Shown here piece by piece: positions 44,297-60,913 of a stretch of 64,000 nt of DNA (positions are counted from its first letter, which is position 1; each line of letters starts with the position of its first letter). The stretch spans positions 19,150 through 83,149 of IMG/VR virus record IMGVR_UViG_3300027608_000021, one strand, 5' to 3'. The translations under genes were made by a program, and so were the position numbers. The stretch comes from a virus. The notes below the pieces were generated by a model that saw nothing but the letters and a program-made list of their open reading frames with translations, had not been told where the DNA came from and did no database searches.

Positions 44297-44299
44297 CTC

Positions 44300-44876: not shown

Positions 44877-45013
44877 TTGATAGCCGTCCAAATGATTACG
44901 CCGAAAGTGATGAGCGCGCACACCACGATGGTGGCATCCTGCCGCTCTCGTGTCTTGCGAGCCTCCTTCACATAGTATGACTCAATGTTGCGAACCTTCT
45001 TGCGTGTCCTCAT
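44873..45013 (-). CDS. Small single-helix membrane protein
   Basis: 46 residues: a basic N-terminus (MRTRKKVRN) and one transmembrane helix near the C-terminus (TIVVCALITFGVIIWTAI). Both ends overlap neighbours by ATGA. Function unknown. Confidence 0.65.
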   Translation of the reverse strand: MRTRKKVRNIESYYVKEARKTRERQDATIVVCALITFGVIIWTAIK

Positions 45014-45375
45014 TCTCCACCTCCATTCTCCAAGTCCAAGTAGCGAGACTTCTTACCCACTACGAAATCTAGTTGCGTCTGCAACCTTTTTGCCTCGTCC
45101 AGTTTGAGACGGATCGGCATCAGGTCGTCAGCCAGATCCCGATTGTTCTGTGGGCTTGAGACCCAGATCGTGACGAGCGCATCCTGACCAAGTTCGTGCT
45201 GCTCGTCAAAGTCAGCATCAACCCACAGGGAAATCTGACCGACAACACCAACGAACGGATCGCTGTGTGTTGGTACTTCGTCCCCGAATGAGAACACATT
45301 CTTATCGTTCTCTTGTCGCTCAATAGTTGCGTGAACAGATTCCTGAATCACCAACGGAAAATCTTTCGCGTTCAT
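45010..45375 (-). CDS. Unknown acidic protein
   Basis: 121 residues from the ATG at 45375 (GGAGG 6 bases before). Beta-rich middle (VGVVGQISLWVDADFDEQHE) and a helical C-terminus; no family recognised. Confidence 0.65.
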   Translation of the reverse strand: MNAKDFPLVIQESVHATIERQENDKNVFSFGDEVPTHSDPFVGVVGQISLWVDADFDEQHELGQDALVTIWVSSPQNNRDLADDLMPIRLKLDEAKRLQTQLDFVVGKKSRYLDLENGGGE

Positions 45376-45377
45376 AC

Positions 45378-46133: not shown

Positions 46134-46336
46134 TACTCCCACTCCTTTCGCTTCTTGGCGTAGCGACTAGCCAACGCCACATCCACCTTATCGTAAACAA
46201 AGTACGCTACAACCAGCGCACCAAGACCAGCGAGACCTCCGACGATAAGACCGAGAGAGTTCCCGCCACTTAGCCCTGCGATAAACCCACCACCGAATAT
46301 AAACACCACCATTAGAAACTTCTCTGACTTGCTCAT
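46133..46336 (-). CDS. Small glycine-rich membrane protein
   Basis: 67 residues. Two transmembrane helices rich in Gly (VVFIFGGGFIAGLSGG and LIVGGLAGLGALVVAYFVY), then a basic tail (YAKKRKEWE). GGAGG precedes the start, with a type A repeat upstream. Confidence 0.65.
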   Translation of the reverse strand: MSKSEKFLMVVFIFGGGFIAGLSGGNSLGLIVGGLAGLGALVVAYFVYDKVDVALASRYAKKRKEWE

Positions 46337-46363
46337 ACTACCTCCTTCTATATATATCTATCT

Positions 46364-46390
46364 AACCTCTAGCCGAAACCATTTCACAGA
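46364..46390 (-). repeat. Type A repeat
   Basis: Upstream of the 46336-starting membrane protein and of the block 44679-46336, with no internal repeat between those five coupled genes. Confidence 0.9.
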
Positions 46391-46392
46391 GT

Positions 46393-46803
46393 CTATTCCC
46401 AAACATACGGCAAGTCGTTTGACTCGTGCCACCCAAACTTGCTGTAATAATCTGCGTCCTTGCGGAGCAGATTGCTACGATGCGACTCGTGGAAGTCGTC
46501 GCGTCCCAACCACGGCGGCACTACGACAGCCGTTTCGTAGTCGCGGTACGCCAGAATCTTGTCGCGGCAAGTGTCCTTGTACCCGCGCTTGATCCACTCG
46601 TCGCACATCGCTACGCCATAAACCACGAGGCAGTTCTCATACCCTCGCCACATCTTTGCAGCGGGGTGATTGACCCACCCTTTTGTCTCGCCCTTGAGAG
46701 CCTTGAGCAGTTGGAGCGTCTCCACTCGCTGCTTGCCTAGTCTCTGTCTGTCAAGAACCTGAGCAGACTTCACGAAGTCATTGTATGGCAGGAATGTTTG
46801 CAT
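46393..46803 (-). CDS. MSMEG_6728/pyrimidine-dimer glycosylase-like protein
   Basis: 136 residues from the ATG at 46803. MQTFLPYNDFVKSAQVLD, RLGKQRVETLQLLKAL and WVNHPAAKMWRGY closely follow the MSMEG_6728 family related to T4-type pyrimidine dimer DNA glycosylases. May repair or modify DNA; experimental function of the family is uncertain to me. Confidence 0.75.
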   Translation of the reverse strand: MQTFLPYNDFVKSAQVLDRQRLGKQRVETLQLLKALKGETKGWVNHPAAKMWRGYENCLVVYGVAMCDEWIKRGYKDTCRDKILAYRDYETAVVVPPWLGRDDFHESHRSNLLRKDADYYSKFGWHESNDLPYVWE

Positions 46804-47216
46804 CAGTCCCACCACCAGAGCACAGAGTCTCCGCGATCCTCAAACTCGTCGGCTCCCAACGCAGAGCCTCGCACGGATGCCTTCATCCGCTTGTATTCGT
46901 CTGCGCTGTATGCGTTCAGACCTTCTAGCGAAAGCCGTGCGTCCTCTCGCCCACAGCCAACCAAGTAGCCGTGATACTTCACCTCAATACCTTCCGCTTC
47001 TAGTCGCCCTGCTTCTTTGATCAGAGCAAGCGTGCCGATGAAGTTATTCCAAAGTTGGTAGTCGGTAAGAGCACCTCCTGCCAACAGAGCCTCCTCCATC
47101 TTATCCCACGGCACATCGCTGAACCGACGGAGACCGCCAGACCAGTCATCGTGCGTGAAGTACGGAGACAGAATCTGCTCTACCTGATCTACAATCTGCT
47201 GCTTCTCGTCAGTCAT
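46803..47216 (-). CDS. Unknown protein
   Basis: 137 residues. An N-terminal helical segment (QIVDQVEQILSPYF) and a Trp/Asp-rich end (GDSVLWWWD). Coupled to the genes on both sides by stop/start overlaps. No family recognised. Confidence 0.65.
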   Translation of the reverse strand: MTDEKQQIVDQVEQILSPYFTHDDWSGGLRRFSDVPWDKMEEALLAGGALTDYQLWNNFIGTLALIKEAGRLEAEGIEVKYHGYLVGCGREDARLSLEGLNAYSADEYKRMKASVRGSALGADEFEDRGDSVLWWWD

Positions 47217-47419
47217 TACTCCACCTCCTCATCTAAATCCTCAAACCCAGAGACAAGAGCCTCCCCGACAATCTGTCGCGGATCGCTATCGTAAGCCACA
47301 GGAACGGCTCGGTCAATAACCTTGTCGTCCTCCTGAACCACGATCACATCCAGCCCCTCAATATCGGTCGTCGCCTCTGCGACTAGACCACCACGAATCT
47401 GAACCACAATCACAGGCAT
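47216..47419 (-). CDS. Small acidic protein
   Basis: 67 residues, beta-rich start (MPVIVVQIRGGLV) and acidic end (FEDLDEEVE). GAGGAGG precedes the ATG after a type A repeat. Confidence 0.6.
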   Translation of the reverse strand: MPVIVVQIRGGLVAEATTDIEGLDVIVVQEDDKVIDRAVPVAYDSDPRQIVGEALVSGFEDLDEEVE

Positions 47420-47433
47420 ATCTACCTCCTCTC

Positions 47434-47462
47434 TACCCTCTAGCCGAAACTATTTCACAGAT
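47434..47462 (-). repeat. Type A repeat encoding a protein C-terminus
   Basis: The stop codon of 47450-47791 lies inside this copy; TCTGTGAAATAG encodes Ser-Val-Lys-stop. Confidence 0.9.
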
Positions 47463-47791
47463 GCTTCTTGCTCGCTTGGCACACACCCAACGCAGTACGG
47501 CTCACCCCTGTCGGTATCAAGTCGCCCTGTCTCTGGGTTGTACCAAACAATATCGTCCTCCACTACAACGCTGTCGCAGACCGCGCAGTTCTCAATGTCG
47601 TCAAACTTGTCCGCTCTACGATCCTCGCATCCGCGACAATAAATCATTGCCACACCAGACCAGTTCTTTGCGCTTACAAAGTATTCCTTGCCAACAAAGT
47701 CGTCTGCTAACTTCTCGTCGCATTGGTCGCACTTAGTCGGCTCAATGCTTTTGAGTATCTTTCTCCCTAGTTGCGGCGAAACTCTGCTCAT
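47450..47791 (-). CDS. Multi-CxxC zinc protein
   Basis: 113 residues with CDQCDE, YCRGCED, CAVCDS and YCVGCV, enough for two zinc sites. Its last three residues (SVK) are encoded by the intergenic repeat. Confidence 0.65.
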   Translation of the reverse strand: MSRVSPQLGRKILKSIEPTKCDQCDEKLADDFVGKEYFVSAKNWSGVAMIYCRGCEDRRADKFDDIENCAVCDSVVVEDDIVWYNPETGRLDTDRGEPYCVGCVPSEQEASVK

Positions 47792-47793
47792 TG

Positions 47794-48000
47794 CTACTCC
47801 TCCTCGTAGCCGTCAAACCACGCGCCATACTTATCGGTGTGTGCTTTGCCAGCCTCGCTAGTTGCCGTGCTGCTGCTCGTATCAGGATCATTACACCAAT
47901 GCTGAGCCTGTTCTAGAGTCTTACCTCTAGCCAGTACCCGCGTAGGATACTCGTCGCTGAAATACATTCGTACTACCCGATACTTCTTGCCGTCAGACAT
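47794..48000 (-). CDS. Small phage protein with DPxTSSxTxTS motif
   Basis: 68 residues from the ATG at 48000 (GGAGGAGACGA before it). YRVVRMYF, LEQAQHWCNDPDTSSSTATS and GAWFDGYEEE match a small uncharacterised family I remember from actinobacteriophages. Function unknown, but it is a useful host-range clue. Confidence 0.7.
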   Translation of the reverse strand: MSDGKKYRVVRMYFSDEYPTRVLARGKTLEQAQHWCNDPDTSSSTATSEAGKAHTDKYGAWFDGYEEE

Positions 48001-48217
48001 TCGTCTCCTCCTTATCACCCGCTAGGGTAATCCAGTCAATCTTTCCTGCCCCGAACAGGATTGCCTTTGGGTCAATATTGTATGACTGAGCAACATACTG
48101 AGCCATACCTTCCTCCGATCCGCAGTCGCTGCATACCATCGTCTTGTTATCGTATCGGGATAGTGCCCCTCTGATTGCGTCAAACTCCTTGCCACAGCCA
48201 TTGCATTCCTGAATCAT
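47993..48217 (-). CDS. Small zinc-ribbon protein
   Basis: 74 residues, CNGCGKEFDA and MVCSDCGSEEG. Overlaps the next gene start by 8 bases. Unknown role. Confidence 0.65.
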   Translation of the reverse strand: MIQECNGCGKEFDAIRGALSRYDNKTMVCSDCGSEEGMAQYVAQSYNIDPKAILFGAGKIDWITLAGDKEETNV

Positions 48218-48231
48218 TTCTGCACCTCCTT

Positions 48232-48261
48232 CTACTCTCTAGCCGAAATCATTTCACAGAT
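48232..48261 (-). repeat. Type A repeat encoding a protein C-terminus
   Basis: The stop of 48249-48614 is inside it (again Ser-Val-Lys before the stop). Confidence 0.9.
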
Positions 48262-48614
48262 TCCTTCTCAACGCTTTTGTTTGACCCGCATTGGTGGCAG
48301 CGGTAGGTCTTGCCATCCCACTTGCCGACCTCTGGCTGAACCTCTACGCCTCCTGTGTCGGTCGTAGCGAATCCGTCCTTGTGGACATCGTTGCCACACT
48401 CACACACGAGGAAGTCGCCCTCGTACCTGATGGCGTGCTCCTGATGGTCGTAGGCTCGTCCTACCTGAACCGCGTGGATATCCTCCTCCCACCACTCTGA
48501 GACTTCCATATCCTGTGCGATTGCGACAGCCTTGTCCATCGCCTCCGCTGCGGTCTTTGCCTCTACTCTGATCTCAACATCCGCAACCTTGCGAACCTCT
48601 ACTTCCCAAATCAT
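48249..48614 (-). CDS. Unknown protein with zinc-ribbon end
   Basis: 121 residues. An N-terminal alpha/beta domain (WEVEVRKVADVEIRVEAKTA) then CECGNDVH and CHQCGSNK. Ends ESVK, encoded by the repeat. Confidence 0.65.
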   Translation of the reverse strand: MIWEVEVRKVADVEIRVEAKTAAEAMDKAVAIAQDMEVSEWWEEDIHAVQVGRAYDHQEHAIRYEGDFLVCECGNDVHKDGFATTDTGGVEVQPEVGKWDGKTYRCHQCGSNKSVEKESVK

Positions 48615-48886
48615 TAGTTCACCTCCTCGTCAATGAAACCTTCTAGATGAAACTCGTCCACGATTATAAATGCGGGAACCTCCGTGCCGTACTTCTTGTG
48701 AACCACCCCATCAGGCATCGGAATGTCCTCAAAGTTGTCGCCGCTGCGGTATGCCTGAATCGCCTTCTTTGCTACCTCAATCATAAAGCGTGGCGGTGCG
48801 GGGTACAGGTTGCTCGTCATATGCCACTCCAATGCGACATCCTCGCTCGCTGCCTCGCGCATCCCCATCAGTCCTGCGTATCCCAT
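48614..48886 (-). CDS. Unknown small protein
   Basis: 90 residues; GGAGGTCAT precedes the ATG. Middle PPRFMIEVAKKAIQAYRSG is helical, end acidic. No family recognised. Confidence 0.6.
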   Translation of the reverse strand: MGYAGLMGMREAASEDVALEWHMTSNLYPAPPRFMIEVAKKAIQAYRSGDNFEDIPMPDGVVHKKYGTEVPAFIIVDEFHLEGFIDEEVN

Positions 48887-48900
48887 ATGACCTCCTTCCT

Positions 48901-48926
48901 ACTCTCTAGCCGAAACTATTACATAC
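48901..48926 (-). repeat. Type A repeat
   Basis: Variant TATGTAATAG; overlaps the end of the unit that begins at 49230. Confidence 0.85.
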
Positions 48927-48930
48927 TTGA

Positions 48931-49230
48931 TCAGTTGTAGTCGGTGCTCCAAATAACTTCTGAGATTCCTCCGTCGTGAAGCATCCACTCAACTTCTGTG
49001 AGTATCCTCCCCTTGACTTCCTTTGTTGCAAACTCCTCCTCACAATCCGAGCACCAGAGAGACTCTACTTCTGTGCCGTCCACAAAGATGTCGTCTCGTG
49101 GCTCCTCAACCCAGAACGCTCTACCCGCGTCGTCAATAGGCTTCAGGTTTGCCAGTACCTTTGCCGTGATCGTGATCCCCGAAGCCTCATCACCCGCTAC
49201 CTTAGCCCGATCACAAGTGTGCTTGTACAT
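48931..49230 (-). CDS. Unknown acidic protein
   Basis: 99 residues from the ATG at 49230 (AGGAGG 6 bases before). One CSDC pair near the middle and a Trp-rich C-terminus. No family recognised. Confidence 0.6.
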   Translation of the reverse strand: MYKHTCDRAKVAGDEASGITITAKVLANLKPIDDAGRAFWVEEPRDDIFVDGTEVESLWCSDCEEEFATKEVKGRILTEVEWMLHDGGISEVIWSTDYN

Positions 49231-49242
49231 AGACACCTCCTT

Positions 49243-49272
49243 CTAGCCTCTAGCCGAAACTATTTCACAGAT
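49243..49272 (-). repeat. Type A repeat
   Basis: Continues into a GAAGGAGG ribosome site for the 49230 start. Confidence 0.9.
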
Positions 49273-49274
49273 CT

Positions 49275-49541
49275 CTACTTCGTGGGAAACTTGGCTGAGA
49301 GCCACTCGTAGGCTTCCTTAGCCTCCTCGTCCCCTTGTGCCATTGCGTTTCCCAGATGCCCTGCAATGTTGATGACTGATCCGATCAAAGCACGAGCATC
49401 CTCGCGCTTCTTGCGACCCGCAGCCAAGAACACCACATTATCTGCAAAGAGTGCAGCCATCGCCGCGTACCCCTGCTTCGTGGGAGTCAGGTCAATGAGA
49501 CCATTCTCCTGTTTGATTGCCTCGTCCTTCATCACGCTCAT
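49275..49541 (-). CDS. Unknown helical protein
   Basis: 88 residues from the ATG at 49541. Ala-rich helices (MAALFADNVVFLAAGRKKRE). No family recognised. Confidence 0.6.
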   Translation of the reverse strand: MSVMKDEAIKQENGLIDLTPTKQGYAAMAALFADNVVFLAAGRKKREDARALIGSVINIAGHLGNAMAQGDEEAKEAYEWLSAKFPTK

Positions 49542-49554
49542 ACTTACCTCCTTC

Positions 49555-49582
49555 ACACTCTAGCCGAAACTATTTCACAGAT
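49555..49582 (-). repeat. Type A repeat
   Basis: GGCTAGAGTG variant, directly before GAAGGAGG for 49541. Confidence 0.9.
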
Positions 49583-49583
49583 C

Positions 49584-49814
49584 CTATCGCTTGCCAAGAG
49601 CCTCGTCGGTCAGGTTCATCCCCATCTGCGTATGAATCTTGAGCCGATCCGTGTCGCCGTGCTTGTCGTACTCCTCCAATGCCAGACCATACGCTACCGC
49701 TGCGTCCACGAACGCACGCGCCGCCCTGCCGTCCTGCGTGGTCAGCGAGTTCAGAAACGCGAAGTCCCGCCGACCTTCCAAGAATCCTCTAAGCATCCCA
49801 TTGTCTGCTGCCAT
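49584..49814 (-). CDS. Unknown small protein
   Basis: 76 residues, helical (RAARAFVDAAVAYGLALEEY). GGAGG precedes its ATG at 49814. Confidence 0.6.
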   Translation of the reverse strand: MAADNGMLRGFLEGRRDFAFLNSLTTQDGRAARAFVDAAVAYGLALEEYDKHGDTDRLKIHTQMGMNLTDEALGKR

Positions 49815-49830
49815 AGTCGCACCTCCTTCT

Positions 49831-49858
49831 ACTCTCTAGCCGAAATCATTTCACAGAT
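49831..49858 (-). repeat. Type A repeat
   Basis: Followed by GAAGGAGG for the gene at 49814. A G-run/C-run hairpin (about 49866-49896) lies on its upstream side and may end the 49908-50327 transcript. Confidence 0.9.
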
Positions 49859-49907
49859 TCCTTGCCGTTGGGGGGATCAGTCGCCCGACCCCCCCCCACC
49901 GATACCC

Positions 49908-50327
49908 CTAGTCCATCCTTGATCGGAACCCTACGCCCTTGTAGCCCTTGCTCGTGAGGTAGCGTGCCACCGCTCCTGCTGCCGCCTCCTTGCGAGACAT
50001 AGACTGACCGAATCCTGAGACCCAGAGATCTACCCCGCCGTCGTAAGAGTTCTTGTGAGCAGAGAATACTCCACCCCTAGCGTCCCCATAGTTCCTGAGG
50101 ATCGCCTTGCCAAGAGCCGTATTGAGCGGCACATTGACCCACGCGAATCCACACGCTCCCCCTGAGACATCCCAGCGTTGCCCAGTTGCGGAGTCCACCA
50201 CTACCATCGGTGTAGGGCTGTCTCCCAGTCCTGCGGCGCAACCCTGAGCGATTGCCTCAATGAGATCCTGCTCAATGACGAGCCGCTGAGCCTTCGCTGC
50301 TCTAATCTTATCCTTCACATAACCCAT
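49908..50327 (-). CDS. Unknown protein
   Basis: 139 residues from the ATG at 50327 (GGGAGG 7 bases before). A helical N-terminus, then a compact Gly-rich domain (SGGACGFAWVNVPLNTALGK) and RYLTSKGYKGVGF. Recalls small actinophage proteins of unknown function. Confidence 0.65.
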   Translation of the reverse strand: MGYVKDKIRAAKAQRLVIEQDLIEAIAQGCAAGLGDSPTPMVVVDSATGQRWDVSGGACGFAWVNVPLNTALGKAILRNYGDARGGVFSAHKNSYDGGVDLWVSGFGQSMSRKEAAAGAVARYLTSKGYKGVGFRSRMD

Positions 50328-50370
50328 ACCATTACCTCCCACTATCAGGGGATCAGATTGTCTGACCCTC

Positions 50371-50400
50371 CTACCCTCTAGCCGACATCATTTCACAGAT
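50371..50400 (-). repeat. Type A repeat with 5' leader hairpin
   Basis: Followed by a stem-loop at about 50350-50367 and then the ribosome site of 50327. Confidence 0.9.
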
Positions 50401-50402
50401 CC

Positions 50403-50576
50403 TTACTTCTCCAATCGTACTGGAGTTTCGGTGGACTGATCAAAGCCAACCTTCGCACCAAGCCATACGAAATCCTCGTGATCGCGCACGAGTTTCGCGC
50501 ACTTCGCCTGATCGTTAGCAGCCGCTGCTGCCTCCATCTCCTGCTCAATCTGATCCAGTTTCTCCTGAATGGTCAT
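50403..50576 (-). CDS. Small helical protein
   Basis: 57 residues from the ATG at 50576 (AGGAGGTAGGG before). A heptad-rich helix (LDQIEQEMEAAAAANDQ). Unknown role. Confidence 0.6.
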   Translation of the reverse strand: MTIQEKLDQIEQEMEAAAAANDQAKCAKLVRDHEDFVWLGAKVGFDQSTETPVRLEK

Positions 50577-50610
50577 CCCTACCTCCTGCTCTGAGGGGAT
50601 CATCCCCTCC

Positions 50611-50639
50611 TACCCTCTAGCCGACATCATTTCACATAT
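50611..50639 (-). repeat. Type A repeat with 5' leader hairpin
   Basis: Leader hairpin GAGGGGATGATCCCCTC at 50593-50609, then AGGAGG and the 50576 start. Confidence 0.9.
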
Positions 50640-50716: not shown

Positions 50717-50890
50717 TCACAGGGGAGTCTGCTTCCCTCTCCTAGCCGATTCTGCTTCCTGCTCTCTACGCTTCTGGCGTGCTTTCTCCATCAGTTCATT
50801 ATGGAGTCGGAGCGTGCCCTTCCCACTCATCACCATACGGAATGAGCGTGAATCCACCTTATTGTCTCTATTGCTCTTGATGTAGTCCAT
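50717..50890 (-). CDS. Small basic protein
   Basis: 57 residues from the ATG at 50890 (GGAGGATAGACTG before). Very basic (ARQKRREQEAESARRGKQ), helical; possible nucleic-acid binder. The stretch 50640-50716 after it is A/T-rich and holds a degenerate repeat copy near 50661-50676. Confidence 0.65.
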   Translation of the reverse strand: MDYIKSNRDNKVDSRSFRMVMSGKGTLRLHNELMEKARQKRREQEAESARRGKQTPL

Positions 50891-50903: not shown

Positions 50904-50932
50904 TACTCTCTAGCCGAGATCATTACATAGAT
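50904..50932 (-). repeat. Type A repeat
   Basis: Variant ATCTATGTAATGATCTC; upstream of 50890. Confidence 0.9.
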
Positions 50933-50999: not shown

Positions 51000-51027
51000 A
51001 CCCTCTAGCCGAGAACATTACACATTT
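51000..51027 (-). repeat. Type A repeat without an evident gene
   Basis: The 70 bases between it and the next repeat contain a GGCGA-GCG-TCGCC hairpin but no ORF. Confidence 0.85.
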
Positions 51028-51056
51028 GCCCAGTCTTGGCAAGCCTTTCCCACCAG

Positions 51057-51208
51057 AGCCAAAAGCATTTCACATATCCCACCCGCGTGAATGGTACATC
51101 TGTTCTATTCGCCACTAGCAAGGGGGTTATCCACATATGTGAAACAATCCTGTGAAACATTACACATATACCACCCCCCTGAAACGGAGCCATAATCATT
51201 TCACATAT
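51057..51208. repeat. Cluster of type B and inverted repeat copies
   Basis: Type B copies at 51057-51077 and 51188-51208 flank an inverted copy at 51134-51149 and a near-palindrome at 51151-51170 (TGTG...CACA). The 51030-51287 stretch has no gene. Confidence 0.8.
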
Positions 51209-51222
51209 AAGTATAAGAGAAT

Positions 51223-51254
51223 GGACAGAGAGGGGTAGGAGTCCCTCCCTGTCC
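51223..51254 (-). terminator. Terminator-like hairpin after 51288-51611
   Basis: Stem GGACAG-GAGGG with CCC-TC-CTGTCC on the minus strand, followed by ATTCTCTTAT. A moderately T-rich tail. Confidence 0.6.
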
Positions 51255-51287
51255 TAGTGTCTTTGTGCTTCTCCTACTTCGGCGGAC

Positions 51288-51611
51288 TTAGCGGACGATT
51301 GCGGAGACCGCTCCTCGTGGCAACCCTACGCCCTGCCGCACCACGCTCTGGTGTCGCCCTGTCGTGTGGCTGTACTTCTCCGCTGGCACAACCCACTCGC
51401 CCCGCTTCGTGTACCACGCGATTGGTGTGCTGTACGAGTAGACTACATACGAGACTTCTCCCGCTGTGATGTCTGCCAGCCACAACTCCTGCGCCCTGCC
51501 GTAGATGATCCCTGATCCGTTAGGGCTGCGCGTTGCCCAGATGCTGTTGCCTCTGAACTCTGCACGCTGCGCCACTTTACCAATGGCATCGTGCCGTGTC
51601 GTGTATCCCAT
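51288..51611 (-). CDS. Small actinophage-type protein
   Basis: 107 residues from the ATG at 51611 (GGAGGTCAA before). MGYTTRHDAIGKVAQRAEFR, SYVVYSYSTPIAWYT and a late TTGRHQSVVR motif match a small family I associate with actinobacteriophages. Function unknown. Confidence 0.7.
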   Translation of the reverse strand: MGYTTRHDAIGKVAQRAEFRGNSIWATRSPNGSGIIYGRAQELWLADITAGEVSYVVYSYSTPIAWYTKRGEWVVPAEKYSHTTGRHQSVVRQGVGLPRGAVSAIVR

Positions 51612-51646
51612 TTGACCTCCTACTATCTGAGGGGAACTTCCCCTCC

Positions 51647-51675
51647 TACCCTCTAGCCGAGAACATTTCACATAT
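51647..51675 (-). repeat. Type A repeat with leader hairpin
   Basis: Leader hairpin at 51629-51645 (GAGGGGAAGTTCCCCTC), then AGTAGGAGG. A type B copy lies upstream at 51691-51711. Confidence 0.9.
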
Positions 51676-51715
51676 CCTTATGACAGCCAGAGCCAACATC
51701 ATTTCACATATATGG

Positions 51716-51757
51716 AGAAAAAGCAAGGGGGGAGCACCCCGTCGGATACTCCCCCCC
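51716..51757 (-). terminator. Intrinsic terminator of the 51.8-51.95 kb unit
   Basis: GGGGGGAG pairs with CTCCCCCC on the minus strand and is followed by TTGCTTTTTCTCC. Confidence 0.7.
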
Positions 51758-51950
51758 TGTATCGGGTTGATTCCTACACCCCCCGTCGGGGATGTGCTCC
51801 TCGCCACCCTACCGCTCCCAGATTTACAGAGTCTGCCCTAGCGGTCATCGCTCCACCTGCATCTCCAATACCCGCATTTGAGGCTGCGGCATTTTGATCG
51901 CTCGTCCGATCGCCTCACCTTAGGGAGAGAGTTCCTAGGATCTCTCCTCC
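51757..51950 (-). ncRNA. Candidate structured non-coding RNA cassette
   Basis: Bounded by a type A repeat (51951-51979) and a terminator, but the longest good ORFs are 24-26 codons. On the minus strand consecutive stems can form: GGAGAGA/CTCTCTCC (51924-51947), GATCG/CGATC, CCGCA/TGCGG, CCGCT/AGCGG enclosing CAGA/TCTG, and CCCC/GGGG. Spacing fits a regulatory RNA of about 190-240 bases. Tiny peptides such as the 24-codon ORF after GGTGGAGCG cannot be excluded. Confidence 0.45.
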
Positions 51951-51979
51951 TACCCTCTAGCCGTAATCATTTCACATAT
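51951..51979 (-). repeat. Type A repeat before the RNA cassette
   Basis: Same form as those preceding protein genes; a type B copy is at 52008-52028. Confidence 0.9.
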
Positions 51980-52032
51980 GGATAGAACAGATGTTCTATT
52001 TGGCCAGAGCCACAATCATTTCACATATAATA

Positions 52033-52067
52033 TAAAAGAAAAGGGGAGGGCTGCCCACCCTCCCCTT
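52033..52067 (-). terminator. Intrinsic terminator after 52071-52310
   Basis: AAGGGGAGGG/CCCTCCCCTT stem (52041-52050 with 52058-52067) followed by TTCTTTTA on the minus strand. Confidence 0.8.
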
Positions 52068-52070
52068 CCC

Positions 52071-52310
52071 TTAGACCTTCTTGCTGATTGTTCTAATGGC
52101 TGCCAGATCCCAGAAGCCATCACCTCGTGCCTGATCATTGAGGAGGATCCTCCCCGAGATCAACGCGCCCTTGTTCTTGTACTCCCCTGCGGCTGCTGCT
52201 GCGGCGTACCGCATCACCTCCGCACTTGGTGCAATATTGGTGAGTGTACGCTTCGCGTGTCCACCCTTCCCGAACTGCGCCCAACGCTTCAGACCCCAGA
52301 CCTTACGCAT
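52071..52310 (-). CDS. Small basic protein
   Basis: 79 residues; GGAGGGTCAAG precedes the ATG. A basic N-terminus (KVWGLKRWAQFGKGGHAKR), an Ala-run (YAAAAAAGEY) and a compact end. No family recognised. Confidence 0.65.
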   Translation of the reverse strand: MRKVWGLKRWAQFGKGGHAKRTLTNIAPSAEVMRYAAAAAAGEYKNKGALISGRILLNDQARGDGFWDLAAIRTISKKV

Positions 52311-52347
52311 CTTGACCCTCCTACTAGTGGTGGCGTATCTCGCCTCC

Positions 52348-52375
52348 TACCCTCTAGCCGAGATCGTTTCACATT
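52348..52375 (-). repeat. Type A repeat with leader hairpin
   Basis: Leader hairpin GGCG-AGATA-CGCC at 52332-52344, then CTAGTAGGAGG before 52310. Confidence 0.9.
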
Positions 52376-52392
52376 AGATAACTAATAAAGAG

Positions 52393-52498
52393 AGCCAGAA
52401 CCATTTCACATATGCTACTAGAATCATTACACATATAAAATAATAAAACGCCGATATGTGAAATGATTATAAAAATACATCCCTAATGTGAAATGATA
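52393..52498. repeat. Two type B copies facing two inverted copies
   Basis: 52393-52413 and 52421-52436 read leftward; 52454-52468 and 52484-52498 read rightward. The only place with a symmetric convergent array. Confidence 0.8.
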
Positions 52499-52513
52499 GT
52501 GGCACGGGGGTTC

Positions 52514-52537
52514 GGGAGGAGGCTCCTGCCTCCCCCC
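52514..52537 (-). terminator. GC hairpin after 52549-52848
   Basis: GGAGGC-AGGA-GCCTCC on the minus strand with extra G/C pairs; no T-run. Confidence 0.5.
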
Positions 52538-52548
52538 TCCCCTCCCTC

Positions 52549-52848
52549 TTAGAAGTGCGGATCCATATACTCTCGCGCTTCTCCGAGTGTGAGTCCGTAC
52601 ACGCTTGCTCCTGGAACGTAGAACTCCGTGCCTCGCTTTGTATCCTTCAGTCTGAACTTCATCTCTCGCCCGTTGAGTCCGCCGCTTGTAATGTATCGCA
52701 CCACGACCTCTTTTGTGAGCCGCCCGTTGCGCTTGGCTGCCGCTTCTGTTGCGAAGGGTACGATCCTCACAACCTCTGCCGCGTATGAGTCCGATCCGCA
52801 ATGGATCGTTGCTGGCATCCCCAGCGCGAGTCCTTTGTACCAGTCCAT
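52549..52848 (-). CDS. Unknown beta-rich protein
   Basis: 99 residues; GGAGGGTCAG precedes the ATG. The start MDWYKGLALGMPATIHCGSD recalls small actinophage proteins; FRLKDTKRGTEFYVPG in the middle. Function unknown. Confidence 0.65.
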   Translation of the reverse strand: MDWYKGLALGMPATIHCGSDSYAAEVVRIVPFATEAAAKRNGRLTKEVVVRYITSGGLNGREMKFRLKDTKRGTEFYVPGASVYGLTLGEAREYMDPHF

Positions 52849-52879
52849 CTGACCCTCCTACTCTGAGGGGAACTGCCCC

Positions 52880-52908
52880 TCACCCTCTAGCCGCAATCAT
52901 TACATATA
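52880..52908 (-). repeat. Type A repeat with leader hairpin
   Basis: Leader hairpin GAGGGGCAGTTCCCCTC at 52865-52881, then GTAGGAGG. Confidence 0.85.
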
Positions 52909-52914
52909 TAGCGG

Positions 52915-53109
52915 AGCCACAAGTATTTCACATATACGCCACTAGTTGAGGGTATATTCTTTGATTGTGCCACTAGTTATGTGAAATAGTCTCATATTTC
53001 GTGCGTGCCAACATCATTTCACATATACTAGTCAAAACAAATAAATCATTTCACATATTGCCAGACGCTGCCAAGTTTCGCCCAAATGTGGCACGATCAT
53101 TTCACATAT
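52915..53109. repeat. Dense repeat array in a gene-free gap
   Basis: Type B copies at 52915-52935, 53006-53026, 53041-53058 and 53090-53109, plus an inverted copy at 52978-52990. No ORF lies in the 52850-53145 gap. Confidence 0.8.
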
Positions 53110-53143
53110 GATAGGGGAGGGTGATTGTCCACCCTCCCCTATC
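53110..53143 (-). terminator. Perfect 14-bp hairpin after 53146-53484
   Basis: Stem 53110-53123 with 53130-53143, loop GACAAT on the minus strand, immediately followed by a type B repeat. No T-run. Confidence 0.6.
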
Positions 53144-53145
53144 CC

Positions 53146-53484
53146 CTAGATCGTGATCGTCTGACCCTTTGCCAGATTGTAGATCGCCATCTGGCGATTC
53201 TCCCTCCCGAGTCTCATAGCATCCCGCTTCGTGCGGACGATTGTCGTAGGATCCAGATGGATTGTATCGCCATCCACCCACGCTCCCAGATGCCGAGTCC
53301 CGAACCGATACCAGATGAGGAACAATGCCTGACGGATTGTCGTCTCCGTTGCCGTGATCGGGAGCCTGATTGCCGTCTCCGTCGTGGCTCCTACGGCATA
53401 CCCCCGCTTCGGGGTGATCGGGGTGAGGGTGCGACTCTTGATCGTCGCTCCGCCATCCCGCAGGATTCTATCGCGTAGATTCAT
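53146..53484 (-). CDS. Unknown protein with DP(T/x)-R-AxRLG motif
   Basis: 112 residues. TPITPKRGYAVGATTETAI, HLGAWVDGDTIHLDPTTIV and LGRENRQMAIYNLAKGQ match a small family seen in actinophage accessory regions. Function unknown. Confidence 0.65.
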   Translation of the reverse strand: MNLRDRILRDGGATIKSRTLTPITPKRGYAVGATTETAIRLPITATETTIRQALFLIWYRFGTRHLGAWVDGDTIHLDPTTIVRTKRDAMRLGRENRQMAIYNLAKGQTITI

Positions 53485-53521
53485 CTCCTGATCCTCCTAC
53501 TAGTGGAGTGCTCTTGCCCTC

Positions 53522-53588
53522 CTACCCTCTAGCCGAGATCGTTTCACATAGCATAAAAAATATGCGGAGCCACAATCATTTCACATAT
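53522..53588 (-). repeat. Type B + type A tandem
   Basis: Type B at 53568-53588 and type A at 53522-53550 lie in the same orientation, 17 bases apart, before the 53484 gene; the clearest example of the paired arrangement. Confidence 0.9.
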
Positions 53589-53596
53589 AACACAAT

Positions 53597-53632
53597 AAAA
53601 AAGGCAGGGAGGTACGCTGACCCCCCTGCCTT
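53597..53632 (-). terminator. Intrinsic terminator after 53637-53801
   Basis: AAGGCAGGG-GG stem with CC-CCCTGCCTT, followed by TTTTTTATT on the minus strand. Confidence 0.8.
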
Positions 53633-53636
53633 CTTG

Positions 53637-53801
53637 TTAGATTCTGCCGTCTCGTCGTGCCTTCTCGTATAGTGCCGCACGACTCTCCAAGTAGTCCTGA
53701 CGATCCTGATACTGCTCAATCTTTTGGATGATTAGCATCCCTGTGAGTACGAATAGTGCACCACCTGTGAACGCCGTCAAGATTGCCGAGATCTCTACCA
53801 T
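53637..53801 (-). CDS. Small membrane protein with coiled-coil tail
   Basis: 54 residues from the ATG at 53801 (GGAGGAAACGGCA before). One N-terminal transmembrane helix (ILTAFTGGALFVLTGMLII) then a charged helix (KIEQYQDRQDYLESRAAL). Unknown role. Confidence 0.65.
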   Translation of the reverse strand: MVEISAILTAFTGGALFVLTGMLIIQKIEQYQDRQDYLESRAALYEKARRDGRI

Positions 53802-53838
53802 TGCCGTTTCCTCCTACTAGTGGAGAGCACTTCTCTCC

Positions 53839-53867
53839 TACCCTCTAGCCGAGATCATTTCACATAT
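53839..53867 (-). repeat. Type A repeat with leader hairpin
   Basis: Leader hairpin GGAGAG-AAGTG-CTCTCC at 53822-53838, then CTAGTAGGAGG. Confidence 0.9.
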
Positions 53868-53908
53868 CCGCGTGATGGAATACCTTAAAAGCAAGCCACT
53901 AGAAGAAG

Positions 53909-53984
53909 CATATGTGAAACAATCTCAGACTCATAATCATTACACATATAAGATTGTGTGCGGTGCCAGAATCATTTCACATAT
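53909..53984. repeat. Inverted copy plus two type B copies
   Basis: Inverted copy 53909-53923; type B at 53931-53949 and 53964-53984, the right-most members of the family. Confidence 0.8.
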
Positions 53985-53992
53985 GAATGAGC

Positions 53993-54036
53993 AAAAAAAA
54001 AGGGAGACCAGGGCAGCCTCGCCGCCCTGATCTCCC
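53993..54036 (-). terminator. Strong intrinsic terminator after 54059-54688
   Basis: A 13-bp stem (54024-54036 with 54002-54014, one G-T) is followed by nine T on the minus strand. Confidence 0.9.
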
Positions 54037-54058
54037 TCTTGCCGTAGCAGCCTCGCTG

Positions 54059-54688
54059 CTAGTCTCGGCTGGAGTGTGCACCGCCTTCGGTGCGTGCCTT
54101 CGCACGATTCACCGCTACTCGCACCGCGTTAGCGGTGGTGCGGATCCCTCGTGCGCGCAGGTTCGCAGCGACCTTCGCAGCGTACCCGTAGTGTGCACCG
54201 CCGACTGCCTCCAGTTCGGCGAGAATCGCAGCATCATTCGCTGCGCCTCGTGCACCGTTAGCAGCACCGCGTGCCGCCAGTTCTGCACCGTGTGCAGCGA
54301 CCGTGTGAGAGTGTCGCACCGCGACCACCGCTGCGACCAGTGCGCTACGCTCCGCATCCGCACCGCGCACCGCGTGCGCATTGTCTGCGACCTGATCGGC
54401 CAGCACAGATCCCAGATCCGTCATCTCGCCATCCTTGCCGCTCACCGCTTGCGAGAGATAGGCGAAGCGCACCGCTGCGCCATCCCCTAGCCGCTCCTCA
54501 CGGTTGGCATTGTACGCAGCGCGCACCGCTGCAGCGACCGTAGCCGCAGGATCAGTCGCGAGAATCATGAGCGCATCCTGCGCCATATCCTCACGATCGG
54601 CATACCCTCTAAGGCTGCCAGTATGGAGCGCGGCAACGGCTGCCGATACCTCGCGGATAATCTCCGCCGTGATCCTCTTGTGAGACAT
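54059..54688 (-). CDS. Alanine-rich, possibly sigma-factor-like protein
   Basis: 209 residues from the ATG at 54688 (GGGAG 8 bases before; ATG 54694 is too close). YADREDMAQDALMILATDP (about 29-47) resembles sigma region 2 of ECF-type factors. The C-terminal NLRARGIRTTANAVRVAVNR could be a helix-turn-helix like region 4. The middle is extremely Ala-rich and GC-rich, unlike its neighbours, suggesting transfer. First gene of the leftward block with its own terminator. The sigma assignment is tentative; other HTH regulators are possible. Confidence 0.45.
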   Translation of the reverse strand: MSHKRITAEIIREVSAAVAALHTGSLRGYADREDMAQDALMILATDPAATVAAAVRAAYNANREERLGDGAAVRFAYLSQAVSGKDGEMTDLGSVLADQVADNAHAVRGADAERSALVAAVVAVRHSHTVAAHGAELAARGAANGARGAANDAAILAELEAVGGAHYGYAAKVAANLRARGIRTTANAVRVAVNRAKARTEGGAHSSRD

Positions 54689-54763
54689 ATTCATGTCTCC
54701 CTTCTCCCTCGTCTATAGGCAGCGAGGGGCTGCAGCAGATCGGAGACCCGACCTGATGCCATC

Positions 54764-54829
54764 AGTATAGCCGAAAAGCAAGAAGCGCGTTTTCGTGAAT
54801 ATTCATCAGGTTTCGTGCTTAATATTCAT
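54764..54829 (-). promoter_or_regulatory. Candidate leftward promoter with direct repeats
   Basis: TATACT on the minus strand (54769-54764) has no matching -35. Instead, two direct repeats of TTTCGTG plus AATATTCAT (plus strand 54791-54806 and 54811-54829) sit where an activator would bind. The leader down to 54688 contains GC-rich stems. Confidence 0.45.
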
Positions 54830-55238: not shown

Positions 55239-55709
55239 ATGAGACATCCAGATTGGTTTTCCAGTCTACCATTTAAGGTGGTATGCGGGAAAGGCATGAC
55301 AAAGGATTATCTCAAGAGGTATAAGCCAGCTCTGCTTATCATGGCGAGGGCGGTCACAGACCATAAAATTTTTTTGCGCCAGGTCAGCCTGCATTACCAC
55401 GCTGACCAGATGTGCCGCGACGCGGGGTTCGCCGAGGACTGGGTTCACAAACTTACCCTCTGCTCCGCCGACATTGACACGGCTCTCCACGAACTAGCAC
55501 ACGTCGCCACCCGATCGGAACACTCCAAGCGGTGGGCGAAGTACCTGTTCCGACTGCATAAGCAGTATATGTCACCGATTCAGTGCCGACGCTGGGACTT
55601 GCGGGTTGCCCGTGACTATCCAGTAGCCGTGCGCTACTATAAGCGGCGATACAAGCGGGACCCAAGCCCGCTTCGCAAGCGACCAAGAAAAGAGACACCA
55701 GATGTCTGA
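55239..55709 (+). CDS. Zincin-like metalloprotease, second copy (complete)
   Basis: 156 residues from ATG 55239 (GGGAG upstream). HELAHVATRSEHSKRW repeats the HExxH...H pattern of the first copy. It shows the missing N-terminus: a basic segment (MTKDYLKRYKPALLIMARAV) before the zinc domain. Overlaps TerS by 8 bases. Confidence 0.72.
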   Translation: MRHPDWFSSLPFKVVCGKGMTKDYLKRYKPALLIMARAVTDHKIFLRQVSLHYHADQMCRDAGFAEDWVHKLTLCSADIDTALHELAHVATRSEHSKRWAKYLFRLHKQYMSPIQCRRWDLRVARDYPVAVRYYKRRYKRDPSPLRKRPRKETPDV

Positions 55710-56265
55710 TGAGACGATCGTTTCCAAGACCCAAGGGCAGCTCCGTCGTGGGCGACCCTCTGGGGCAAGAAATAAGCCAAAGCTTGATACCCAGCAGCTC
55801 AACGAGCTCAAGGACAAGGTTGGCAGGTTCCTCCCGCAGGCAGACTGGAACTACCTCGCAGGCGTGCTCGAGGGTACAGATAAGCCAGTTCTTGAGAAAG
55901 ATCTGGACATCTTCCTTACCCTCCAGCTTAAAGCCCTCTTGCCACAACTGGCGCAAGAGATTGAGGGTGGACAGCTGACAAAGGAGGCGACACAGCGCTC
56001 GAGCACTATCAAAGAACTTCTCGCGTTGCGATTCCAGATGGAGAAGCACGAGAAGGGCGAAGATACGCCGAATGCCGTGACGTTTATACAAAATGTCTTT
56101 GAATCACGAGGAATCGACCAAGCTCGGCTCGCAACTCTCGCAGGAGGATTTGGCGGGTCTATTGAAGGTATCGCCCGCCCTCTACCTGGAACTTCTCACG
56201 AAGACCAAGGGGGAGCCGACGAAGCTAGAGCCGTATCAGATCAACTTCCTGAACGATCGGAGTAA
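55702..56265 (+). CDS. terS: Probable small terminase subunit, second copy
   Basis: 187 residues, nearly identical to 385-942 through residue 150, then divergent (LPGTSHEDQGGADEARAV) where the terL frame takes over. Same AT-hook-like N-terminus. Confidence 0.6.
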   Translation: MSDETIVSKTQGQLRRGRPSGARNKPKLDTQQLNELKDKVGRFLPQADWNYLAGVLEGTDKPVLEKDLDIFLTLQLKALLPQLAQEIEGGQLTKEATQRSSTIKELLALRFQMEKHEKGEDTPNAVTFIQNVFESRGIDQARLATLAGGFGGSIEGIARPLPGTSHEDQGGADEARAVSDQLPERSE

Positions 56266-57514
56266 GTTCCGTCTTGTCGCTAAGTCGCGTCAGATTGGAT
56301 TCTCCTACATCATTTCAGGAGAGGGTCTGCACCGCGTTGCTACCTCGACTGGCAAGAAGGTTAACTACGTTTCCATCAATCAGAAGGAAGCGTCGGACAA
56401 GATCAACTATGCCAAACAATTCTACTACTCAATCCCTGATAAGTCTGGCTTCAAGTCTGCCGTCTACACGTCTGCAGAGTTTGAGTTCAGCCTTCACGAT
56501 CACCCGAATACTTCATACATGATCAGCCAGCCCGCTTCTGCAGCGGTCCGTGGCGGCGAGAAAGATGTCTACTTCGATGAGTTCGCATTTGTGCGAGACG
56601 CTCGAAAGCTCTACGACGCTGCCATACCTGCGACTACTCGAGGCGATGGTCGGCTGACCGTTGTATCTACACCTCTCGGACAAAGCGGTCTCTTCTTTGA
56701 GATGGCGAACGATCGGTCTCGCTACCCAGAATACTCAGTGCACATTGTGCCCTGGTGGGAATGCTCTATCATGACCATCGATCCAGCCGAGAGCACGGCG
56801 CTTGCGCCAGACTTCGATACCGACCAGCGCGTAAAGCGGTGGGGTACGGATTCGATTAAGTCCATTTACAATAACATGGGTCTCGACGCGTTCCAACAGG
56901 AGTACGAGTGCTCCTTCGCGGATGAGTCGGTCAACTTTTACCCATGGGGTTTGATTGTTAACTGTGTAGATGACGAACTAAACCAGAAAGACTACGACCC
57001 TAATCTCAGTTACGTTATCGGAATTGACATTGCCAAGAAGATCGATAAGACTGTAGTCACTGTGGCTACAATCGACGATGACACTGGCAACATCACTATC
57101 CACAAGACATTTGAGACACAGGATGACTATAGCAAACAAGTTGAGTTTTTCAACAAACTTATTGCAGACATTAAGCCTAACCGAGTTACCATTGACGCTA
57201 CTGGCGTTGGTGGTGTTATTGCGGAGCAGCTAGTTTCTAAGCATGGTGGCATCGTTGAGGCTGTGACCTTTACGAACTCTAACAAGGAACGATGGGCGAC
57301 AACCTTTAAAGGCGATATGCAGATGGGCAAGGTTCGCTTCCCTCGCAAGCGCGAGCTCCTCGCGGAGATCCACGCCATTGAGCGCAAGAAGACCGAGGCT
57401 GGTAACTACCAGTTCAAAGCTCGCTCCGATGGGCACGACGACTATTTCTGGTCGGCGATGCTCGCAATTTACGGTATGGGTCGCAAGGCTCCTGCCATCA
57501 ACTTTGCATGGTGA
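56093..57514 (+). CDS. terL: Large terminase subunit, second copy
   Basis: 473 residues with the same motifs as 776-2197. Substitutions are mostly conservative (KTKGEPTKLEPYQINF). DNA is identical over stretches such as the VVSTPLG region and clearly diverged in others, a mosaic pattern. Confidence 0.93.
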   Translation: MSLNHEESTKLGSQLSQEDLAGLLKVSPALYLELLTKTKGEPTKLEPYQINFLNDRSKFRLVAKSRQIGFSYIISGEGLHRVATSTGKKVNYVSINQKEASDKINYAKQFYYSIPDKSGFKSAVYTSAEFEFSLHDHPNTSYMISQPASAAVRGGEKDVYFDEFAFVRDARKLYDAAIPATTRGDGRLTVVSTPLGQSGLFFEMANDRSRYPEYSVHIVPWWECSIMTIDPAESTALAPDFDTDQRVKRWGTDSIKSIYNNMGLDAFQQEYECSFADESVNFYPWGLIVNCVDDELNQKDYDPNLSYVIGIDIAKKIDKTVVTVATIDDDTGNITIHKTFETQDDYSKQVEFFNKLIADIKPNRVTIDATGVGGVIAEQLVSKHGGIVEAVTFTNSNKERWATTFKGDMQMGKVRFPRKRELLAEIHAIERKKTEAGNYQFKARSDGHDDYFWSAMLAIYGMGRKAPAINFAW

Positions 57515-57579
57515 CGGGCTGCTCTCCGAGCATTGCAAGGGCGCAGGGTAACGGTTGAGACGCGTGGTCTCCCCCCGTC
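57513..57579 (+). ncRNA. Structured RNA element after terL, second copy
   Basis: GACGGG (57513-57518) pairs with CCCGTC (57574-57579); hairpin GAGAC-GCGTG-GTCTC at 57557-57571. It begins inside the terL stop codon, whereas the first copy has about 24 extra bases before it. Confidence 0.55.
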
Positions 57580-57608
57580 CACCAACACATATAGACAGAA
57601 GGTGCAGG

Positions 57609-57818
57609 ATGCCGAATTCGGTGAAGTGCGCGCACTGCGGCTCACTCTTCGGTATCGAAGGTGAGGACGGAGTACTGCGCATCAAGTTTAAGGATCTCTA
57701 TCGAGAGATTGAAGGTCGAGTCAGCGGTCCATGTCGCAAATGCGCAATGACCGTTGTCTGGCCCAATGAGGATGTAATCCTTGTTGCAAAGAAGACCAAG
57801 GAGGAAAGCCGTGGCTAA
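57609..57818 (+). CDS. Small zinc-ribbon protein, second copy
   Basis: 69 residues from ATG 57609, differing from 2315-2524 at essentially one position near the end (ILVAKK for ILIAKK). Confidence 0.7.
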   Translation: MPNSVKCAHCGSLFGIEGEDGVLRIKFKDLYREIEGRVSGPCRKCAMTVVWPNEDVILVAKKTKEESRG

Positions 57819-59079
57819 CATCGAGCGAATCCCCGTAGTCCGTTCACAGACTCCACCTCGGATCGAGGGGAATCAAAACCGCGAGACACCCTTTAAGTCT
57901 CACTCAACTTACACGCGAATGTACAAGCAGCACCCTATTGTCCGTGCTGTTATTGACAAGATTTCGCGCACTGCCGTTGCGACTGGCTATCAGCTGTCCC
58001 CCGTTGATTCAAAGGACGAGCTGAACGAGTCAAACGCCCAGAAGATAGACCTGACTTTTCGTCGGTCAAAGATTATCTCACTTCTGCGCCAGACCTACCA
58101 AGATCTTCTGATCTACGGTGATGCGTTCTGGTATATTCTCCCAGCGCGTGATGGCGTTCCGTTCCGATTCTATCGTATCGCGCCACAGCAGGTAAACCTT
58201 GTCATCGATACTGAGACCCGTGAGGTGATGAGCTACATCACCCGCGATCCAAAGAATGGACGCGAGACTCAGTACGAGCCAGATGAGTTCCTGCACTTCA
58301 AGATCGCGGACCCAGACAACGACTTCTACGGGCTAAGCCCGCTTGAGTCGCTTGGCTCAACCGTCGCGCAAGATCTGTTCGCGCAGACGTACAACGAATC
58401 ATTTTTTGCTAACTCAGCCCAGACAGGCATTGTCTTCAACATGAAGAATGCCTCGAAGGAAGAGGTCGAGCGCAACCGAGAGTTCCTTAAGAAGGAATAC
58501 ACTTCGGCTGCGAACGCACACAAGCCGCTCCTTTTGGAGGGCGATGTGGAAGTCAGCAAGTCCGTTTCCTCACCTGCAGAGATGCAGTTTATCGAGGGTC
58601 GTCGTCAACTGACTATGGAGATCCTTGCGGTCTTCGACCTACCATACACCAAGCTCGGCGGAACCTCTGAAAGCGCAAACCGCTCACAGAGTGCTGAGAA
58701 CGACAAGACCTATCGAACGGAGACAATCTCTCCTTTGCAAGGTATTGTTGAAGAAGTGATTAATGAAAACTTAATCCTGACAACGTTTGGTATTGATGAC
58801 GTGATGTTTGAACATCGTGAAGTTGACACCCGAGACGAAGCGACTCAGATGAAGTTGTACATTGATGCACTAACTCATGGAATCTACGACTTGAACTACA
58901 TTCGTAACCAGCTAGGATTGGCTGCAATTCCGAACGGAAGCGAGCCGTTTATTCAAACCTCGACTGGTATCTTGCCAGTATCTCAGCTTCTTGGTGGAGC
59001 TCCACAGCCAAACACGCCAGCCCCAGCAGAACCTGTTGGAGATGCGACTGACGATGTAGTGGAGGACCCTGATGTCTAA
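57811..59079 (+). CDS. Portal protein, second copy
   Basis: 422 residues from GTG 57811. The core is nearly identical in protein sequence to 2517-3812, but silent changes are common and the last 50 residues are replaced (LAAIPNGSEPFIQTSTGILP). Confidence 0.92.
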   Translation: MANIERIPVVRSQTPPRIEGNQNRETPFKSHSTYTRMYKQHPIVRAVIDKISRTAVATGYQLSPVDSKDELNESNAQKIDLTFRRSKIISLLRQTYQDLLIYGDAFWYILPARDGVPFRFYRIAPQQVNLVIDTETREVMSYITRDPKNGRETQYEPDEFLHFKIADPDNDFYGLSPLESLGSTVAQDLFAQTYNESFFANSAQTGIVFNMKNASKEEVERNREFLKKEYTSAANAHKPLLLEGDVEVSKSVSSPAEMQFIEGRRQLTMEILAVFDLPYTKLGGTSESANRSQSAENDKTYRTETISPLQGIVEEVINENLILTTFGIDDVMFEHREVDTRDEATQMKLYIDALTHGIYDLNYIRNQLGLAAIPNGSEPFIQTSTGILPVSQLLGGAPQPNTPAPAEPVGDATDDVVEDPDV

Positions 59080-60892: not shown

Positions 60893-60913
60893 TAATAATT
60901 AAGGAGACTTTCA

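Follow-up and report, generated by a model that had tools for sequence, protein, structure and literature searches.

Arrays of small phage genes behind phage-specific, promoter-like boxes, with a putative divergent sigma factor as their candidate reader

A moron is a phage gene that stands alone, brings its own promoter and terminator and varies in presence; the classic examples lie singly and are expressed in lysogens, using promoters of host type. In Cluster K phages, short repeats known as start-associated sequences (SAS) lie just upstream of many non-structural genes, and their extended form (ESAS), with a subcluster-specific consensus, has been proposed to contain promoters and to be bound by proteins of different specificity (PMC3203893, PMC11373665). 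Cluster A phages carry stoperators, 20-30 asymmetric intergenic sites oriented with transcription, whose consensus varies by subcluster together with the regulator (PMC6550527, PMC9283540). Phages can also encode sigma factors, such as SPO1 gp28 and gp34 or T4 gp55, and the phage sigmas of lytic development are often very divergent (PMC9429907). Here we describe an array of small genes punctuated by copies of a short box, found in a 64,000-nucleotide stretch of viral DNA (the window; bases 19150-83149 of the 83,149-base IMG/VR record IMGVR_UViG_3300027608_000021), together with gpS, the product of its first gene and a candidate reader of the boxes.

The array occupies positions 44.3-54.7 kb of the window (W), and the record carries a second, diverged copy of it (L; contig 6.4-18.5 kb, locus L047). 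Among further records gathered by terminase searches, the array is long in G007, G010, G011 and G012 and partial in G003 and G008; the six phages compared were W, L, G007, G010, G011 and G012. All of them show the same layout, each with a single homogeneous box family of its own: the box sequence is ATATGTGAAATGATTTCGGCTA in W, GGTATGTTAGGGTTTAGGGTA in L and AAGCCCGTAATGGTCTGGGTT in G010. The W array gave 37 box matches (at least 15 bits), compared with 0-1 in shuffled sequences, and no match in the other parts of that genome that were searched. The L array is free of W-type boxes and the W array of L-type boxes; outside the arrays, the W genome has a single L-type match and G007 has none.

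The boxes fall into two classes. In A elements the box adjoins a -10-like hexamer, [T/G]ANNNT, while B is the same box without the hexamer. The numbers of A, forward B and inverted boxes are 19, 13 and 5 in W, 26, 15 and 2 in L, 24, 14 and 3 in G007, 26, 14 and 7 in G010, 18, 11 and 5 in G011, and 21, 15 and 8 in G012. Both A2 and T6 of the hexamer are present in 130 of the 134 A sites, against 1 of the 82 B sites. The sorting itself made use of the first bases after the box, including A2, so T6 is the cleaner test, and it was found in 131 of the 134 A sites. The inner bases of the hexamer are variable in L and G007, as in a -10 element. At -34 to -13, the A consensus reads ATnTGTGAAATGnTnTCGGCTA in W, nGGTATGTTAGGGTTTAGGGTA in L, nGGTnTGTTAGGnTnTAGGGTA in G007, nAAGCCCGTAATGGTnTGGGTT in G010, nnAGnCCGTAATGGTTGGTGTA in G011 and nAAGCCCGTAATGnTnTCGGTG in G012. 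Given a box that adjoins a conserved -10-like hexamer, the A element is most likely a promoter. It is not solely a ribosome-binding signal, because it also precedes a non-coding RNA without a substantial open reading frame.

Regarding the B boxes, their distance to the next box is mainly 26 bp (L, G007) or 27-28 bp (G010-G012), with other values at 32-38, 46-51 and 53-57; spacings of 39-45 are absent in all six phages. Boxes before genes are direct repeats 26-57 bp apart, and the inverted ones begin 33-77 bp ahead of the next forward box. This spacing suggests proteins bound on one face of the DNA, with the limit that many of the units are homologous. By the Rayleigh test, helical phasing was significant in L, G007 and G010 and weaker in G011 and G012. 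We dropped helical phasing as a claim, the signal being driven by the dominant 26-28 bp spacing, and kept the preferred spacing.

gpS (211 amino acids; window 54059-54694, minus strand) has orthologs heading the array in all six phages, and it is the most diverged among the tested genes common to them. Across the 15 phage pairs, gpS identity follows A-box similarity with a rho of 0.94, compared with 0.60-0.82 for five controls (the terminase and four array proteins). The C-terminal helix of gpS correlates with B-box similarity as well (rank correlation 0.81, versus 0.26-0.55 for the same controls). In W and G010-G012 this helix has the form N-x-[VA]-R-V-A-V and the boxes contain GAAATG or GTAATG, and in L and G007 the helix is EAIHMAV and the boxes contain TTAGGG. 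The helix and the boxes split this way despite an overall gpS identity of W of 41% to L and 40% to G010. Such co-divergence is suggestive of gpS as the reader of the boxes.

What kind of protein gpS might be was addressed with profiles and structural models. The sole match of Sigma70_r2 in five records was the gpS of L, at 11.9 bits against a cut-off of 24; Sigma70_r4_2 gave no match on gpS. HHalign comparisons of gpS with sigma factors were weak, with the Sigma70_r2-matching part aligned to region 2 at p 0.028. The structural matches of the L gpS model are almost all chains of sigma factor and RNA polymerase complexes, each with a non-significant E-value. In this low-confidence model, domain 2 superimposes on sigma-28 with a Z of 6.4 (2.4 A over 61 residues) and the C-terminus on sigma domain 4 with a Z of 4.9 (2.6 A over 51 residues). 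Taken together, we read gpS as a probable, highly diverged sigma factor and as the candidate reader of the boxes. Several points weigh against this assignment and against the box system that we build on it. gpS stays below the Pfam thresholds, its models are poor, with predicted local distance difference test (pLDDT) values of 58-61, and Foldseek returned no sigma factors for the first AlphaFold model, that of W (pLDDT 58). The six phages are related, which makes their pairs non-independent, and other array genes co-segregate with box type too. W alone shows no significant helical phasing (p 0.42). Besides, a sigma factor on its own does not usually bind DNA, and therefore the B boxes would better fit a separate DNA-binding protein.

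Upstream of gpS, a TTGC-like block appears to stand 12 nucleotides before a TANNNT-like hexamer in W, L, G001, G003, G007 and G008 (window ~54750-54780; identified by eye), and perhaps constitutes the gpS promoter. The window also encodes an XRE-type helix-turn-helix protein (32045-32497, minus strand), which we consider an unlikely box reader: it is 78% identical between W and G007, with a nearly identical recognition helix, and the boxes of the two phages differ.

We propose, with moderate confidence, that gpS acts as a phage sigma factor serving the early/middle array through about 20-26 copies of one phage-specific promoter, A. gpS would be made first, from a different promoter, and would direct the host RNA polymerase to all A elements, each a phage-specific box of ~20 bp at about -34 to -13 adjoining its -10-like hexamer. 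The array would then be transcribed leftward from many start points. Proximal transcripts would start at or near a leader hairpin, cover one gene or the non-coding RNA and end at a terminator, giving insulated single-gene units, and the distal A elements would drive small operons. The B boxes may give the same system additional sites to bind. Reader and boxes would drift jointly, which would account for related phages with entirely different box sequences. A further-reaching idea, which we hold tentatively and as somewhat doubtful, is that the promoters of this phage clade form a private language. The specificity of a fast-evolving sigma factor would shift jointly with that of its 18-26 promoters and of 11-15 box copies lacking the hexamer, and phages whose terminases are 93% identical would then be unable to recognise each other's early promoters. 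If this were true, the array of each phage would be insulated from those of its relatives, and segments between boxes could still be exchanged, carrying cassettes with them.

The closest competitor to a sigma factor is an activator similar to MotA, either gpS or another protein, that would bind every box, replace the -35 contact at A and recruit the holoenzyme of host sigma-A, with the B boxes as cooperative second sites. It would explain why B boxes lack a -10 and yet are conserved like A boxes and keep preferred spacings, as well as the occurrence of inverted boxes and the similarity of the hexamer to a host -10. T4 middle promoters are indeed composed of a host -10 and a phage box centred at -30 (PMC2988021). 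However, the box adjoins the -10 here, in contrast to the 12 +/- 1 bp that separate the MotA box from it, and the matches of the gpS model lean, if weakly, to sigma domains 2 and 4. We therefore regard such an activator as a real possibility, although an unlikely one.

Turning to the layout in W, the first-pass annotation had described a repeated order of terminator, repeats, leader hairpin and single gene from about 51 to 54.7 kb. That order holds for ~50.9-54.0 kb, where the minus strand carries six or seven repeats of B box(es), A element, 5' hairpin, gene and terminator, one of the units having a non-coding RNA in place of a protein gene. It does not extend to 46-50 kb, where A elements precede genes or small operons and we found neither B boxes nor strong terminators, nor to the first gene, gpS, which has no A element; some B boxes are orphan or inverted. 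All features that follow are on the minus strand unless indicated, the boxes being assigned by box match (plus hexamer for A elements) and the terminators as hairpins with a T-rich tail. The 45-56 kb stretch contains 21 terminator-like sites, against 6.3 +/- 2.6 in shuffles, and the terminators predicted near 53993, 53597, 52033 and 51716 were confirmed as terminator-like hairpins.

The gpS terminator (53998-54040) is followed by a B box (53965-53984), the A element of F27 with the hexamer GAGGGT (53840-53867), gene F27 (53637-53801; 54 amino acids) and a terminator (53598-53635). Next come a B box (53569-53588) 37 bp upstream of the F0 A box, the A element of F0 (53524-53551) and gene F0 (53146-53484; 112 amino acids), which is present in all six phages. 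The site predicted as a terminator at 53110 proved to be a strong 3' stem (53108-53148) without a T-tract and with a B box directly after it. F28 (52549-52848; 99 amino acids) is preceded by an A element (52882-52909) and a B box 26 bp upstream (52916-52935), and a similar U-less stem behind it, at ~52.5 kb, is followed by two inverted boxes on the plus strand (52454-52505). F9 (52071-52310; 79 amino acids) has its A element at 52349-52376, its B box 37 bp upstream (52394-52413) and a terminator at 52036-52072. The A element of the non-coding RNA (51952-51979) has a B box 49 bp upstream (52009-52028). F1 (51288-51611; about 107 amino acids), also present in all six phages, follows an A element (51648-51675) with a B box 36 bp upstream (51692-51711) and ends at a weaker terminator-like stem (51223-51254). 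Two A elements (51000-51027 and 50905-50932) precede F5 (50717-50890; 57 amino acids). In the distal zone (44269-50639), where the A elements stand without B boxes before genes or small operons, the A boxes start near 50639, 50400, 49858, 49582, 49272, 48928, 48261, 47462, 46391, 44649 and 44296.

The conserved and structured non-coding RNA, of ~230 nucleotides (51724-51950, including its own terminator at 51724-51759), occupies the same place in all six phages. In the consensus fold of the six-phage alignment, 15 of the 54 pairs show two-sided changes, and the open frames of the segment reach at most 32-54 codons. The Rfam search retrieved no family, with chance-level matches only, and a tRNA search of the segment found nothing.

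Several inverted boxes directly after stems without a T-tract occur in G010 (L034) and G012 (L038) too, as at 52454-52505 in W. It is as if a protein bound at the inverted boxes stood in for the U-tract during termination. These boxes directly after U-less stems also fit an operator/stoperator array, in which a phage repressor would block initiation at A and elongation at B and at the inverted boxes by the stems. The sites resemble Cluster A stoperators in being numerous, asymmetric and intergenic, in mostly following the direction of transcription and in having phage-type-specific sequences, and the XRE-type protein would offer a repressor. That protein has almost the same recognition helix in W and G007 despite their different boxes, such a repressor would silence nearly every promoter of the array, and searches for tyrosine and serine recombinase families came back empty, leaving no sign of lysogeny. 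A stoperator array is accordingly quite improbable.

A leader hairpin of about -8 to -15 kcal/mol lies directly 3' of the -10-like hexamer in most proximal units, and is missing from most distal ones. Its sequence varies between phages, its kind does not, and a second ribosome-binding site (AGGAGG) follows it just ahead of the start codon. We infer that transcripts begin at or near this hairpin; a start at the customary distance from the -10 would lie a few bases into its first arm. Another reading, in which the mRNA is long and polycistronic and A is an extended ribosome-binding site or other RNA-level start element comparable to the Cluster K SAS, is scarcely credible: A does end in an AGGAGG-like sequence near start codons and the leader hairpins are conserved in structure rather than sequence, but A precedes the non-coding RNA too, a second AGGAGG stands directly ahead of the start codon in the proximal units, boxes also occur inverted and without a leader, and T-tract terminators separate the proximal units.

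With A read as a promoter, the repeats look like promoter elements, composed of box and -10-like hexamer, and not like dedicated sites for cassette recombination. This bears on the earlier proposal of a cassette array in which accessory genes could be gained or swapped. That proposal largely holds: gene content and order differ among the relatives, so the order is not the invariant one that would have spoken against it. The shared families are ordered F0, F28, F9, non-coding RNA, F1 in W; F9, F0, non-coding RNA, F1 in L; and F9, F0, F28, non-coding RNA, F1 in G007. With the boxes masked, the alignments show opposite orders of F9 and F0 in W and L and a swap of two adjacent cassettes between G010 and G012. 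A position-specific gene of G010 (49908-50342), searched for in the other records, gave nothing. Unmasked, the ends of homologous blocks lie within 25 nucleotides of a box in 35/57, 47/66, 14/15 and 20/27 cases, far more often than array positions in general, of which 20-29% do. Two caveats apply to this enrichment: the boxes are alike and alignments may extend to the box end, and genes must stay whole, so intergenic breakpoints are expected anyway. No match to Phage_integrase was found in four records and none to Resolvase, i.e., no tyrosine or serine recombinase family, and an integron-like array, with a tyrosine integrase acting on attC-like sites, is thus not indicated. Homologous recombination in the shared intergenic DNA is enough for cassette exchange, and units may be gained, lost and reordered in this way.

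The record itself contains the terminase-capsid genes in duplicate (window 289-8016 and 55702-63277), which lie ~55-57 kb apart and share mostly ~70-90% DNA identity, with the exception of a ~1 kb stretch of capsid gene that is 99-100% identical in both copies (contig 24.6-25.6 kb; window ~5.5-6.5 kb and ~60.8-61.8 kb). Contig ~16.5-24.6 kb is of type L, with a 91-99% match to record G008, and the L part ends at ~24.6 kb; the remainder behaves as a single genome of the other type, W. Two related phages are therefore joined through the ~1 kb stretch, either as an assembly chimera or as a real mosaic. Among the compared records, G007 has 57,186 bases and overlapping ends, and the terminase frame of G011 is broken (record 28216-29637), through a sequencing error or in reality. 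A more distant relative, G014 (terminase 73%), has its own partly palindromic repeat family, CAGCCCGTAACGG, in the corresponding region (L042/L043, record ~26-29 kb).

Pfam scans of ten larger proteins, a subset of the genes, detected no RNA polymerase, a point in favour of the sigma reading; they identified DnaB, PD-(D/E)XK, dNMP kinase-like, MoxR-like AAA, VWA and tail proteins. The MoxR-like AAA ATPase is encoded beside the VWA-domain protein (window 41072-44240, minus strand), inside the leftward gene block. A nucleotide search of phage records with the whole region gave no match, and the one scan made of bacterial genomes yielded just one terminase relative, a distant one (26%). An actinobacterial host is plausible, as relatives of one array protein occur in Microbacterium and Gordonia phages.

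We found no description in the open-access literature of a near-monocistronic early array that keeps its layout and changes its promoter sequences between close relatives; phage sigmas and phage-specific promoters as such are already known. These phages offer natural cognate and non-cognate sets of regulator and promoters in close genomic backgrounds, a natural experiment in the rewriting of a set of switches, in which one can test directly how a regulator and tens of its sites change specificity jointly. Sigma factors paired with orthogonal promoters would also have practical use as tools. The array also illustrates how small accessory genes can be gained or swapped with their neighbours undisturbed, and it holds a conserved non-coding RNA without an Rfam match.

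By comparing the array with the systems outlined above, we find partial likenesses to each. As in Cluster K, the repeats are confined to non-structural genes and their consensus differs by phage type. The 13-bp SAS near start codons, GGGATAGGAGCCC, matched once, with 2 mismatches, where 0.97 matches were expected, which is chance level. ESAS are 17-bp imperfect inverted repeats with a short spacer and a normal -35/-10, while the array boxes are mainly direct repeats at least 26-28 bp apart that adjoin the -10, and terminators and leader hairpins make single-gene units here. Sites like the 13-bp stoperator GGTGGMTGTCAAG gave 6 two-mismatch matches against 2.7 expected, and 0 within the cassette zone. 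Unlike in Cluster A, most array sites stand at gene starts and include a -10-like hexamer, the searches found no integrase, and the box difference between close relatives is far larger. The T4 middle promoters (MotA/AsiA, PMC2988021) are similar in layout only, a phage box replacing the -35 next to a host-like -10; they differ in that the array box adjoins the -10, extra B copies lie upstream, units are monocistronic and the box sequence differs among close relatives. Like other phage sigmas, gpS would be a phage product redirecting host polymerase to phage promoters, but it stays under the profile thresholds, and its promoter set differs between close relatives and serves mostly single genes. 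With morons, the units share, by sequence, their own promoter and terminator and a variable presence, and they depart from them in being arranged in series behind one shared phage-specific promoter, in including conserved genes and in showing no sign of lysogeny. Hence, membership in the described repeat families fails on the features tested, and the array appears to work like a phage-specific promoter regulon of moron-like units.

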